A stretch of DNA of 64,000 nucleotides from Alcanivorax sp. (GTDB lineage: Bacteria; Pseudomonadota; Gammaproteobacteria; Pseudomonadales; Alcanivoracaceae), in assembly GCA_022449455.1 (NCBI GenBank), contig JAKUPL010000005.1:1-64000 (forward strand), written 5' to 3'. Within the stretch, counting starts at the first letter, position 1. Every line of letters begins with the position of its first letter. The notes beneath the pieces are model-generated. The model was not told where the DNA came from, ran no database searches, and saw nothing but the letters and a program-made list of their open reading frames with translations. Positions 18,925 to 22,800 of the stretch are shown here, in pieces. The position numbers were made by a program, and so were the translations under genes.

Positions 18925-19251
18925 ATGAGCCCGAAGGATAAGCCACTTATCTGGCTACATGGAGACGTAAGGACGCCGCCTTTCTCGGCCGCCGCCAGAT
19001 TAGAGGCGGGCTACCTGCAGCGTGGTGTAACACTTACCATGCCGCACTCCCGACCCATGCCCTCCATCGGCGCTCATTGCCACGAACTTCGCATCACGGA
19101 CGACGACAAGATCTGGCGTATATTTTACCGGATAGACAGGGATGCCATTGTCATAGCAGAGATTGTTAAGAAGAAGACCGGCAAGACTCCGAAGACGGTA
19201 ATCGATACCTGTAAGACCAGATTCAGGATGTATGATGATGCATGCGAATAA
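18925..19251 (+). CDS. RelE/ParE-family toxin (phage Gp49-like, HigB type)
   Basis: A 108-residue basic protein starting MSPKDKPLIWLHGDVRTPPF. The order LIWLHGDVRTPPFS...AGYLQRG...PMPSIGAHCHELRITD...WRIFYRID...AIVIAEIVKKKTGKTP is that of Gp49-like/HigB toxins, which act as ribosome-dependent mRNA endonucleases. The ending CKTRFRMYD is also typical. It overlaps the antitoxin start by about 20 bp, toxin first, as in higBA operons. Base composition is lower in GC than the flanking core genes, in keeping with lateral acquisition. Confidence 0.85.
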   Translation: MSPKDKPLIWLHGDVRTPPFSAAARLEAGYLQRGVTLTMPHSRPMPSIGAHCHELRITDDDKIWRIFYRIDRDAIVIAEIVKKKTGKTPKTVIDTCKTRFRMYDDACE

Positions 19252-19567
19252 GCGTAAAAAGCTTGAGGAAAGCGGCTGGAAAATCGGTAATGCGGATGAG
19301 TTTCTGGAGCTCACCCCTGAAGAGTCCGCCTACATTGAGATGAAACTGGCGCTCAGTCAGTCGCTCAAAGAGAGTCGACGCAAGAAAAACCTGAGCCAGG
19401 TAGAGCTGGCAAGACTGATCAAGTCCAGCCAGTCTCGAGTGGCCAAAATGGAAGCCGGCGACCCGAGCGTTTCCATGGATTTGCTTATGAGGTCACTGCT
19501 TGCGCTTGGCACTTCGCCAGAAGAAGTTGGCAGGGTTATTTCTTCAGGTAAGCCTCGAGCTGCATAA
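19232..19567 (+). CDS. XRE-family antitoxin (HigA type) paired with the Gp49-like toxin
   Basis: A 111-residue protein with a helix-turn-helix at about residues 48-100 (KNLSQVELARLIKSSQSRVAKM). The N-terminal part (ADEFLELTPEESAYIEMK) is typical of antitoxins paired with Gp49-like toxins. Three ATGs lie close together (19232, 19235, 19238) after CAGGA, so the exact start is unclear. The last 24 bases overlap, on the opposite strand, the out-of-frame tail of a truncated YoeB-like reading frame. It should bind both the toxin and the upstream palindrome. Confidence 0.85.
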   Translation: MMMHANKRKKLEESGWKIGNADEFLELTPEESAYIEMKLALSQSLKESRRKKNLSQVELARLIKSSQSRVAKMEAGDPSVSMDLLMRSLLALGTSPEEVGRVISSGKPRAA

Positions 19568-19711
19568 CGCGGAGCTTTGCGGAGGCGGCTTGCGGTAAGG
19601 GTCTTCTGAAATCAGCATCAACGATTCCTGGGCTTTTGGCTTGAAGCCGCTGGAGGCCGGTTTCCTTGCATCTTTCTGGGCGTGCTTGGTGTAAACCACC
19701 TTCCATGTCAC
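19544..19711 (-). pseudogene. Truncated Txe/YoeB-type toxin
   Basis: Starting at a GTG that overlaps the antitoxin stop, the frame reads TWKVVYTKHAQKDARKPA, then SSGFKPKAQESLMLISEDPY and RKPPP, which is the N-terminal 40-odd residues of the YoeB/Txe family. After RKPPP the similarity ends: the frame runs on as QSSALCSSRLT and stops after 55 residues inside the 3' end of the neighbouring higA-like gene. Family members are about 85 residues long and carry their catalytic Glu, Arg, His and Tyr in the missing half, so this toxin should be inactive. The break lies near 19580-19590. Confidence 0.75.
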
Positions 19712-19950
19712 CAGTCCAGCTCCTCATCGCATTCATCCACGGGGGTATCCATCCCCTCACGAATAGACTCCCGCATACCCGGCACGGAGAGCAGGTAAAG
19801 TGTTTCTTGAATGGCCGACCAGTCTTCCTCGGAGACCAGGACGGCTTTGTTCCGCTTGCCCATGATGACGATGGGTTGATGGGACTCGGCGGTTTCATCA
19901 ATCAACCGATAAAGGTTGCTGCGCGCCTCAGTCGCTGTGATCCCGGTCAT
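19708..19950 (-). CDS. Phd/YefM-family antitoxin
   Basis: An 80-residue protein beginning MTGITATEARSNLYRLIDET, the conserved N-terminal fold of Phd/YefM antitoxins, continuing with QPIVIMGKRNKAVLVSEEDW and an acidic C-terminal tail (DTPVDECDEELDW) that would wrap around the toxin. The frame is intact. Its partner at 19544-19711 overlaps its stop codon but is truncated, so this is now an orphan antitoxin that could still act as a DNA-binding repressor or neutralise related toxins. Confidence 0.9.
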   Translation of the reverse strand: MTGITATEARSNLYRLIDETAESHQPIVIMGKRNKAVLVSEEDWSAIQETLYLLSVPGMRESIREGMDTPVDECDEELDW

Positions 19951-20055
19951 GACGCACCTCTTGCGTGTTCAATTTTTCACCAAGTGTGAGCCTTTGGGTG
20001 GGTACGCCAAGACGGACGTATTTCGTCACGCCACTCAGCACGCGCACACGACGTT

Positions 20056-20115
20056 GGGGTCAGGTCCTGTGTCTCGTCTTTGCCAATCAAAAGGCAAGAC
20101 ACAAAACTTGACCCC
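20056..20115. repeat. Island hairpin repeat, copy A
   Basis: Begins GGGGTCAGGTCCTGTGTCTC and ends ACACAAAACTTGACCCC. The outer arms are complementary with a few mismatches, and an inner stem pairs GTCTTTGCC with GGCAAGAC around AATCAAAA. It lies downstream of the PUA-nuclease gene. Related copies are at 21311-21363 and 22090-22145, each ending in GACCCCATCA. Confidence 0.75.
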
Positions 20116-20201
20116 ATCAAACACTAACGCTCAGCTTAACCGTCCGACTTTGGAGCGCCAGCGGAAAAGCCGGTCCGAGTTCAAGCTGTTTTTGGATTTC
20201 G

Positions 20202-21254
20202 TCATCCCGACCACTCAGGCGCCATAATTAGAAGCGCTTCGCGCGCACCGTCGCACGGATAAATCGGATAGTGGCTCATTAAGCGGGTCAGATTCATGTA
20301 AGCAGCCAGCCCGAAATTACCTGACGCGTTCCGGGTATAGACCCCATATCTAAGACCATCGGTGACAATCAGACGTCGACATTCCGACTTTCCTTGGGCA
20401 TACGTTTGGGCCTGGGACATTGCGGATAGACAGGAGGCATTCATTTTTTTCGCTTCAACGACGACGGTTAAATTAATGTTCTCCCTCGGCAACTTATCGA
20501 AAAGTGCAACATCCACTCGACGCCATTCGACAGCCATACGCTGAGGCGTCCACCCTAGGGCACGAAGCAATGGAATCACGAGATAAGCCACCGTCTCATG
20601 CTCAGAAGGCATACTTGTTCTCTGATACCACTTAGCGATCCTTACCAATTCGCCTATATTATCTACCAGTGCTGCAATTGAATCGCTGGCCACACCATGA
20701 TCGAATAGAAATTCGGAGACGTCGAAAAACTCAATCTCGCTTGACTCGTCTGGAGATGGAAGCGGCGGTATTTTCCGCTCATACCGTTCGGCTGGAATTT
20801 CAAGTTGGGATACCCACTCGCTCACTACTGTAGAACTCAGCCGTTGGGTGGTATCGCCCTGTTTCAACTCATATGTACCAAAGGTTTTTGGATTTCCCCT
20901 CGACTCCCATAACCATCGAATCCGACGGGTGTGTTGTATATCCCAGCCATCTATATCACCGAATTCTGGGCGCCACTCGTAACCCCCCACGACCTCGCCA
21001 ACGGCCAACACCGTTGACGTTCCAAGCCGTAGCACCACTAAATCGCCGTCGGACATCTCCTCCGCAAACCTGCGGAGGTCGGTCACTTCCCTCGCTGACC
21101 AGCCATCCGCCATCAATGCATCCCGACAGTCGGGCCATGATCCAGCGTAACCCGGTCCGTTAAGGATTACGCCCCACTTCAGGCATAGGGCCGAGTAGTC
21201 ACGGTCAGTGTCCCCCGCAGCCTGCTGCCAGATTGTCCTATCGCCGATATCCAT
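20202..21254 (-). CDS. Predicted restriction-type nuclease: PUA-like N-terminal domain plus PD-(D/E)XK domain
   Basis: A 350-residue protein, not recognised as a named family. Residues 20-120 (WGVILNGPGY...RRFAEEMSDGDLVVLRLG...VLAVGEVVGGYEWRPEF...RRIRWLW) have the layout of PUA/EVE-like domains attached to restriction enzymes: an aromatic start, a GD-hydrophobic-basic hairpin, a GEV strand and a final RxxxW. Residues 215-310 look like a PD-(D/E)XK nuclease: Glu220 in HETVAYLVIPLLRALGW, Asp248 in RRVDVALFD, the E267-x-K269 pair in LTVVVEAKK, and QAQTYAQ near 281-287, as in type I HsdR N-termini. ATG 21254 is taken; upstream frame is repeat. Low GC, alone between hairpin repeats. A single-gene type IV-like defence role is inferred. 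Confidence 0.6.
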   Translation of the reverse strand: MDIGDRTIWQQAAGDTDRDYSALCLKWGVILNGPGYAGSWPDCRDALMADGWSAREVTDLRRFAEEMSDGDLVVLRLGTSTVLAVGEVVGGYEWRPEFGDIDGWDIQHTRRIRWLWESRGNPKTFGTYELKQGDTTQRLSSTVVSEWVSQLEIPAERYERKIPPLPSPDESSEIEFFDVSEFLFDHGVASDSIAALVDNIGELVRIAKWYQRTSMPSEHETVAYLVIPLLRALGWTPQRMAVEWRRVDVALFDKLPRENINLTVVVEAKKMNASCLSAMSQAQTYAQGKSECRRLIVTDGLRYGVYTRNASGNFGLAAYMNLTRLMSHYPIYPCDGAREALLIMAPEWSG

Positions 21255-21310
21255 CAGAATCCAATACCTTGTCCTCCTGCATGTACTGCAGAGCGCGTTC
21301 TTGTGCGTTG

Positions 21311-21363
21311 GGAGGCAAGTCTTGTGTCTCGTCTTTGCCACTCAAAAGGCAAGACCTGACCCC
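21311..21363. repeat. Island hairpin repeat, copy B
   Basis: GGAGGCAAGTCTTGTGTCTC at the left, an inner stem GTCTTTGCC/GGCAAGAC, and CTGACCCC at the right. Compared with copy A it has lost about nine bases in the right arm. It lies just upstream of the nuclease gene, and its end is followed by ATCACC. Confidence 0.7.
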
Positions 21364-21408
21364 ATCACCACCGCCCTTTTTATACGTTGCCGGCATGGAT
21401 TGATATTT

Positions 21409-21570
21409 TTACTTACCGTTCAGGCTTTTCTTCTGTGCAAGTCCAATAATCAGAAGAGTAAGCCCTGCAATCATGCAGCCAGCAGCCGGCCCCATAGCGT
21501 AGAGGACTGCATAGAAAAGGTGATAAAAAGAAAGACAAAAACTATTGTGCTTGGCCTTGTTAGCTTGCAC
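21409..21570 (-). CDS. Possible 53-residue small membrane protein
   Basis: An open frame from GTG 21570, overlapping the end of the RraB-like gene by 11 bases, to TAA at 21409. It holds a long hydrophobic stretch (VLYAMGPAAGCMIAGLTLLI then IGLA) followed by a basic tail (QKKSLNGK), the look of a single- or double-span small membrane protein. No good ribosome site is seen, and translation may be coupled to the upstream gene or begin at an internal Met (28 residues). No homologue is recalled; it could be chance. Confidence 0.3.
   Translation of the reverse strand: MQANKAKHNSFCLSFYHLFYAVLYAMGPAAGCMIAGLTLLIIGLAQKKSLNGK
21554..21564 (-). other. Integron attC R''-like core at the 3' end of the RraB-like gene
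   Basis: On the minus strand GCTAACAAGGC contains the stop codon of the RraB-like gene. This matches the outer core of many integron attC sites (a GCCTAACAAGGCG-like form). No matching downstream half was found before the next hairpin repeat, so the site is incomplete. Confidence 0.4.
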
Positions 21571-21982
21571 TTTCTACCAGCTCGTTTTCAAACTTCACGC
21601 CGAGTTTTGGCGATTCAAGCGACCATGTAGAGAACATGCAGGAGTGCGACTGAGCAACGTCGGACATGAACTCCACCCATGCACGATATTGCTCCGCAGT
21701 GAGCGTAATCCCATCTGGTCGAGTTGTGCCTTTCACGTACCAGTAACCGCTTTCTTGTGGCCCCACAACTTCAACCTCGTAGTTCTCCGAAAGTTGATTA
21801 GCTAATGCGGCTGCGCCTTCTTCTTTTTGTCCGAAGTGCAGAAAATCCAGTGCCAATACAGCCTCATCAGTCAAGCCGGCATTCACCATCTGCTCCGACA
21901 ATGCTGCCGCCTCCTGGAGCCTCTGTGCCTTCTTGCTCTTGTAGTAATCGCGCCATACCTTCTCAGCTTCTTGTGATTCCAC
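21560..21982 (-). CDS. RraB-like (ribonuclease E inhibitor family) protein
   Basis: A 140-residue protein with an N-terminal helical segment (EKVWRDYYKSKKAQRLQEAAALSEQ) and a ferredoxin-like C-terminal part (YEVEVVGPQESGYWYVKGTT...LTAEQYRAWVEFMSDVAQSHSCMFSTWSLE), recalling RraB/DUF695-type folds. The assignment is by pattern and moderate. Translation starts at GTG 21982, six bases after GGAGG. It is bounded on the 5' side by an attC-like sequence (22000-22074) and its stop lies in an attC-core-like GCTAACAAGGC, so it looks like a former integron cassette. If it is RraB-like, it might modulate RNA decay. Confidence 0.55.
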   Translation of the reverse strand: MESQEAEKVWRDYYKSKKAQRLQEAAALSEQMVNAGLTDEAVLALDFLHFGQKEEGAAALANQLSENYEVEVVGPQESGYWYVKGTTRPDGITLTAEQYRAWVEFMSDVAQSHSCMFSTWSLESPKLGVKFENELVESAS

Positions 21983-21999
21983 GGAACCCTCCTTTACGA

Positions 22000-22074
22000 G
22001 CTAACGCCGCCTTAACCGGTGAGTAATAGTTGGCTATAGTGTGAAGCGAAGCGGAACCGAGACAATTGTTACGC
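22000..22074 (-). other. Integron attC-like half site upstream of the RraB-like gene
   Basis: On the minus strand it begins GCGTAACAATTGTCTCGGTT, passes through CCGCTTCGCTTCACACTATA and ends CCGGTTAAGGCGGCGTTAGC. The centre and the right half closely resemble environmental integron attC sites that I recall, with the R' core GCGTTAGC abutting the ribosome site of the next gene as in a cassette junction. The left L'' arm is not complementary, probably lost by insertion of the adjacent hairpin repeat. Confidence 0.45.
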
Positions 22075-22089
22075 GGGCGCGTGCATTAC

Positions 22090-22145
22090 GGTCAAGTCTT
22101 GTATTTCGCCTTTGCCGCCCAACAGCCAAAGCACAAGACTTGACC
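22090..22145. repeat. Island hairpin repeat, copy C
   Basis: Outer arms GGTCAAGTCTTGT (22090-22102) and ACAAGACTTGACC (22133-22145) are perfectly complementary, making a 13-bp stem. The loop contains a second imperfect stem (CTTTGCC... with ...AGCCAAAG). A further isolated TGACCCCATCAC occurs at 22163-22174. The copy separates the GIY-YIG and RraB-like genes. Confidence 0.8.
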
Positions 22146-22187
22146 CCATCAACGTGCTTATTGTGACCCCATCACTTCATTGGGCAG

Positions 22188-22646
22188 CTATTCCTCAAAA
22201 TTGATCGCGGTTGGGATAAATTTCTTTAGAGCCGTGCGCTGCGACCTGACCGTACCGCTTTTGATTCGCGTGCCTTGCTTGTTTATTAGCGCGTCACCTT
22301 TCGCAAGATAATGCCGGATCAGCGCTTTCTCGATCCGTGCTATCGACGAATCTTTGCTTTGTCCCGGCTTAGGCTCAAAGACACCGATCAGCAATCGCCT
22401 CTGCCCATTCGCGGCGCTCTCAATTCCCTTCATGAGCTGCACGTTGTTGAGCTGCTGCTTCACCCGGGATTTGAGGTTCTTCGCTTTTCCGACATACAGC
22501 GCCTTCGCACTTTCTCCATGAATGCGCAGAAAGATATAAACCCCCGCTTGCGCGGGAATCCTGTTGATATCCACGCTGTATATGCCTTGGCTCGCCGAGG
22601 CGTTGCGCAGAAAAAGTGGGTTTTGCCAACTTACGTGCAGATCCAT
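22188..22646 (-). CDS. GIY-YIG domain protein
   Basis: A 152-residue protein with a GIY-YIG nuclease module at about residues 33-110: GVYIF as the first strand, ALYVGKAKNLKSRVKQQL as the second with the usual Gly-Lys-x-x-x-Leu-x-x-Arg, then RIEKALIRHYLA carrying the metal-binding Glu and a final INKQGTR in place of the usual LN. The N-terminal SWQNPLFL... segment was not recognised. Standalone GIY-YIG proteins include homing-like and repair nucleases; the role here is unknown. It is lower in GC than core genes and sits at the right side of the island on the minus strand with the other cassette-like genes. Confidence 0.7.
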   Translation of the reverse strand: MDLHVSWQNPLFLRNASASQGIYSVDINRIPAQAGVYIFLRIHGESAKALYVGKAKNLKSRVKQQLNNVQLMKGIESAANGQRRLLIGVFEPKPGQSKDSSIARIEKALIRHYLAKGDALINKQGTRIKSGTVRSQRTALKKFIPTAINFEE

Positions 22647-22800
22647 TATTCCCCCAGAGCATCAACGATGTTTATCCAGCCCGTCCCGACAGGCACTAGG
22701 CCACGTGCGTCATATCCTGTTAGCCCGTTTTTAACTGCCTGAAATAGAAGCAGAAATTATCGGGCACGGCAAACCGGAAAGGCCATTGTCGCGAAAGCAC

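Follow-up and report, generated by a model that had tools for sequence, protein, structure and literature searches.

A predicted fusion of a YTH/EVE-like reader and an HsdR_N-like nuclease in Alcanivorax sp. is a probable stand-alone type IV restriction endonuclease

Can a single bacterial gene that lies among toxin–antitoxin genes encode an enzyme able to destroy modified foreign DNA on its own? The question is raised by a gene at 20202..21254, on the minus strand of the window, the 64,000-nucleotide stretch of contig JAKUPL010000005.1 (assembly GCA_022449455.1) analysed here, predicted to encode a reader–nuclease fusion. The description of this gene in the sequence-only reading was borne out: from its ATG it encodes 350 amino acids plus a stop codon, the motifs GDLVVLRLG, VGEVVGGYEW, RIRWLW, E220, D248, E267-x-K269, and QAQTYA were found at the positions given there, and its GC content was indeed lower than that of its surroundings (52.9% in the gene vs. 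66.4% in the window). A short-pattern scan of 84,980 species genomes returned at least 16 loci, of which 13 cover at least 245 residues at 48–77% identity and three are short pieces; the open reading frame is thus not a chance one. Though a GTG at 21341 opens a longer version of the same frame, position 1 was methionine in 13 of 13 aligned rows, suggesting that the ATG is the likely start. Compared with the nearest homologue (L001), 224 of the 350 third codon positions differed and dS was saturated at a dN of 0.17, indicating that the protein is under purifying selection.

The best AlphaFold2 model, built from a 13-row alignment, had a mean pLDDT of 86.6 and a pTM of 0.82, with block pLDDT values of 84–96 over residues 1–150, and the remaining four full models were less confident (pLDDT 76.0 to 63.3). 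YTH domains headed the Foldseek list of PDB matches for the full model, with YTHDF2 (E 7e-4) as the single one of 354 matches at E ≤ 0.001, and PH1033 and the EVE protein entries 2gbs and 1zce appeared further down. The Foldseek output gives no aligned range, and the YTH match was placed on the N-terminal domain by target size and fold. A fold like that of the modified-base-binding YTH/EVE domains is thus predicted for the N-terminal half. By sequence, the window protein matched neither an EVE nor a YTH family at E ≤ 1 in Pfam or NCBIfam, and the EVE/YTH assignment is made by predicted fold only. On this fold and on hhalign homology, residues 1–150 (20805..21254, minus strand) were delimited as a YTH/EVE-like reader domain of the PUA superfamily; the secondary structure of the model places a helical linker at residues 155–212 (20619..20792, minus strand).

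A search of 398 phylum genomes with the family profile, in which up to five candidates were scored per genome, gave, in addition to the window gene, at least 12 matches, each restricted to the N-terminal domain. All 12 non-self matches had a Walker A motif on one side of the reader and GTMNTAD or GTMNAAD on the other, the arrangement that a reader inserted into a McrB-like GTPase would show. Furthermore, all six of these 12 reader-containing proteins that were tested matched Pfam AAA_5, and an annotated McrC gene lies immediately downstream of a copy of the inserted reader on a Priestia plasmid. In hhalign, the family N-terminal domain aligned with seven McrB-like inserts (alignment A6, comprising L018 and six of the 12 phylum matches) at a probability of 98.8% and an E-value of 7.6e-17, calculated for one pair, compared with 0.2% and E 0.33 for the HsdR_N control. 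Profile comparison thus indicates homology between the reader and the domain that these McrB-like GTPases carry as an insert. PMC11090510 describes insertions in McrB GTPases that are likely to act as specificity domains. At G040:C1:1338495-1341915, a McrB-like gene carrying this reader as an insert lies close to an HsdR gene, the domain matches being approximately 2.3 kb apart.

The C-terminal half contains a predicted PD-(D/E)XK nuclease domain that resembles HsdR_N (residues 216–321; 20292..20609, minus strand), supported by a Pfam HSDR_N match below the cut-off and by a conserved motif. The catalytic stretch from D248 to E267-x-K269 (20448..20513, minus strand) was invariant, as were Q281 and Y285, in all 12 rows of alignment A3, the window protein included. 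Alignment A1 leaves out L012 (frameshifted) and L014–L016 (partial), A3 also omits L013 (cut before the nuclease), and L019 and L020 are in no alignment. The putative catalytic core is hence well supported by the motif. Pfam HSDR_N matched residues 245–291 at E 9.7e-5, with 22.7 bits against a curated cut-off of 25.1, and at E ≤ 1 the window protein matched HSDR_N and HSDR_N_2, not Mrr_cat; nine of 13 family members matched HSDR_N at E ≤ 0.1. An HSDR_N search of the window's genome gave no match at E ≤ 0.001, the window gene included. The comparison with 16 HsdR N-terminal sequences by hhalign gave a probability of 14% and an E-value of 0.0019, and it paired D248, E267-x-K269, and Q281 with the D, ExK, and Q of HsdR_N.

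The sequence-only reading had proposed structure prediction of both domains, and the outcome was divided: the list of fold matches to the full model was led by YTH domains, but the C-terminal domain modelled alone (pLDDT 78.8) had no significant Foldseek match in the PDB. The HsdR fragment 3h1t ranked third for this model (E 0.27, probability 0.51), after two unrelated proteins, and other restriction-endonuclease-like entries ranked lower. In the best full model, residues 251–260, near the active site, had a pLDDT of 56. Searches of PDB sequences with phmmer and profiles returned nothing useful for the window protein. PHROGs gave weak matches only, one of them to an endonuclease family (residues 213–307, E 0.12), and PADLOC mad2 matched over the nuclease part in four family members. 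When the whole protein was compared with viral models by Foldseek, the third match was to a phage protein whose annotation includes a type I R N-terminal domain (E 2.2e-3). The best viral match was BFVD A0A8S5NVT7 from Myoviridae sp. ctEBR14 (E 1.2e-4, 250 columns of 336 amino acids, rmsd 22); judging from the models, this phage protein may have a comparable two-domain architecture. A TyrRSs_C match in two of 13 family members (best E 0.0032) was taken as chance. The nuclease half is therefore less well supported than the reader half, and its placement nearest to HsdR_N as a subtype is weakly to moderately supported. The possibility that the protein is a fragment of HsdR was rejected: the type I subunit has approximately 1000 amino acids with a helicase, whereas the window protein has 350, shows no helicase match, and scores below the HSDR_N cut-off (22.7 vs. 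25.1 bits).

Relatives of the protein are scattered over widely separated bacteria, including Pelobacter, Ferrovibrio, Sphaerochaeta, Acidobacteria, Kiritimatiellales, Pseudomonadales, Psychrobacter, Saprospiraceae, Bryobacterales, Halanaerobiales, and Arenicellales, most of the genomes being MAGs; a homologue with 63% identity is also present on two Cupriavidus metallidurans megaplasmid records. The only full-length match among the 398 phylum genomes, with up to five candidates scored per genome, was in the window's own genome, and the protein was absent from all 12 other genomes of the genus that were searched. No relative was found in the phage records and viral contigs searched. At L005 (L005:381-4956), a phage tail sheath gene lies next to the homologue along with further tail-like ORFs, a setting like that of a prophage-borne gene. 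Copies at L012 (frameshifted) and L013 are broken, which may be an assembly error in MAGs. In L013 (L013:8001-14522) the homologue is split into two pieces separated by approximately 4.3 kb, with a PDC-S11-like, YhcG-type nuclease following them, and the frameshifted homologue in a Halanaerobiales genome (L012:4224-14263) lies amid BrxL, PDC-S25/ThsA-like, AriA/Old-like, and DrmC-like genes.

The gene lies in a variable stretch at approximately 20032..22703 (no strand assigned), which has no counterpart among the matches listed for the 12 other genomes of the genus; both flanks of ~20.03–22.70 kb are conserved within the genus. The site is nearly empty in G001, where 171 bp separate the flanks and the Gp49/HTH pair is missing too, and in G002 and G011 the site is interrupted by contig ends. 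At the same site, G010 has a 1754-amino-acid protein (L057:1222-6486) that matches PDC-S37 (E 4.4e-69) and carries helicase-type AAA domains and an MTES_1575 nuclease domain, and other relatives have other genes there, as read by eye. The 'defence-like island' previously proposed thus holds in part: the site is variable and contains a PDC-S37 match in one relative, but it is only partly a defence island.

As the sequence-only reading had stated, the neighbours include toxin–antitoxin genes and a GIY-YIG gene, and no methylase partner was detected beside the gene. The neighbours are a Gp49/HTH pair (18925–19567), a Phd antitoxin (19708–19950), a 140-amino-acid ORF with a weak RraB match only (21560–21982, minus strand; E 0.013), and a stand-alone GIY-YIG protein of 152 amino acids just below the Pfam cut-off (22188–22646, minus strand). 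The family searches found no methylase among the window neighbours submitted to them, and ORFs of at least 180 amino acids within approximately 5 kb contained neither (D/N/S)PP(Y/F/W) nor the searched cytosine-methylase motifs, a kind of scan that can miss methylases. G003 and G012 have the Gp49/HTH pair as part of the left flank, and G004, G009, and G010, in which coverage stopped at the edge of the site, have its HTH gene there, all without the window gene; furthermore, none of five neighbour proteins was found in the homologue loci searched (tblastn, E ≤ 1e-4). The 140-amino-acid ORF, GIY-YIG, Phd, and the Gp49/HTH pair were therefore rejected as partners. Across 14 homologue loci and the window, covering up to 5 kb, one neighbour was common, an acyl-CoA dehydrogenase shared by L006 and the window at 36% identity; the sharing is chance-like, and the window copy belongs to the conserved flank. 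Clear defence neighbours occurred in few homologue loci; the neighbours examined were a selection from L012, L013, and a small number of further loci, and several flanks were short. There is thus no recurrent partner among the 14 homologue loci, and the distribution is patchy and mostly solo.

Considering these results, we propose that the window protein is a stand-alone type IV (modification-dependent) restriction endonuclease, a reading to which we assign a probability of roughly 0.7. The N-terminal YTH/EVE-like domain would bind a modified base in incoming DNA, probably flipped into the pocket of the reader, and the C-terminal HsdR-like PD-(D/E)XK domain, probably dimeric, would cut the DNA nearby. 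Foreign DNA carrying modified bases, probably of phage origin, may thus be destroyed by a one-gene enzyme; within this mechanism no methylase would be needed, because the host would lack the recognised modification. Modified-base binding, base flipping, dimerisation, DNA and not RNA as the target, cleavage, and phage restriction are inferred. The predicted fold of the reader, its homology to the McrB inserts, and the conserved PD-(D/E)XK motif together support the two-domain type IV interpretation first suggested by the sequence-only reading.

One alternative is a conventional restriction endonuclease that cuts unmodified DNA, the N-terminal domain of which would read the target sequence while a methylase is encoded elsewhere or adjoining. 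L009 has an Eco57I-type methylase by Pfam, convergent and 36 bp downstream, as this explanation would expect. However, amino-methylase-type motif ORFs were present in only two of 14 homologue loci, L009 and L006, one of the two flanks being shorter than 1 kb in L005, L008, L010, and L011; only that of L009 was confirmed by Pfam, and that of L006 resembles an enoyl-CoA hydratase by eye. Together with the predicted YTH/EVE-like nature of the reader, this makes a conventional enzyme unlikely.

The same reader raises the alternative of an RNA-directed or abortive-infection enzyme that recognises modified RNA (e.g. m6A) and whose nuclease attacks RNA or the host chromosome, since the matched YTH structures include, by their titles, complexes with m6A RNA, and YTH-like domains in CoCoNuTs are predicted RNA readers (PMC11090510). 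We consider this quite unlikely, as no partner recurs among the 14 homologue loci and the nearest nuclease families, HsdR_N and Mrr_cat, belong to DNA restriction enzymes. The substrate of both families is DNA. The solitary position of L004, L006, and L007 among metabolic or housekeeping-looking genes (by eye) would also suit a domesticated or housekeeping role, in which modified nucleic acid is bound but not cut. Such a role is very unlikely given the invariant catalytic residues, the patchy occurrence (full length in one of the 398 phylum genomes, with up to five candidates scored per genome, and in none of the 12 other genus genomes), and the broken copies in L012 and L013, though assembly error in these MAGs may contribute to the last point. 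A type IV endonuclease thus remains our preferred reading.

The protein had been put forward as a candidate for an undescribed anti-phage function, and its family appears untested. Bell et al. (2020; PMC7641849) predicted EVE–PD(D/E)XK fusions as type IV enzymes, and PDC-S02, which stands as a prediction in published work, shares the reader; the architecture is therefore not undescribed as a class. The fusions of Bell et al. (2020) have the same general architecture as the window protein, and the section describing them names neither the window family nor its nuclease subtype, though their inclusion is possible. No named description of this family's fusion, or experiments on it, were found in the literature searched. 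A narrower proposal is tentative and rather doubtful: that the family may form a distinct single-chain type IV clade, in which a McrB-insert-related reader, working without a GTPase translocase, is fused directly with an HsdR-type nuclease and recognises m6A or a hypermodified phage base, a modification that none of the known single-chain PD-(D/E)XK enzymes with the same layout reads. The design is thus known in outline, and the combination of an HsdR-like nuclease with a McrB-type reader seems to be untested; a single-gene enzyme of 350 residues lends itself readily to testing and might be developed into a tool for detecting a modified base.

Among tested enzymes, the EVE–HNH modification-dependent VcaM4I (309 amino acids; PUA 1–147, linker 148–178, HNH 179–309; PMC7897488) matches the window protein in layout, with an N-terminal PUA-superfamily reader, a helical linker, and a C-terminal nuclease, though its nuclease is HNH rather than PD-(D/E)XK. 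The McrB-like GTPases with the inserted reader carry a homologous reader, whereas the window protein has no GTPase and has its nuclease in the same chain. PDC-S02, a single-gene candidate for phage defence in PADLOC, has, like the window protein, the homologous N-terminal reader and a C-terminal PD-(D/E)XK domain. The PDC-S02 models cover only residues 58–116 of the window protein (best E 1.5e-7), PDLC04819 matched 12 of 13 family members, and hhalign of the two families covered residues 7–273 (97.2%, E 4.2e-11), with nearly all of the signal in the reader (96.9% for the N-terminal domain vs. 1% for the C-terminal domain). However, all 10 PDC-S02-like proteins tested, of 20 loci from an order-wide search, carry Mrr_cat above the Pfam cut-off, whereas the window protein is nearest to HSDR_N. 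By these profile comparisons, the window protein is related to PDC-S02 but differs in nuclease subtype, and PADLOC's models do not place it among the members. One reader module thus occurs on three cutting devices, McrB/McrC, Mrr_cat, and the HsdR-like nuclease, and may therefore be treated as a portable specificity part.
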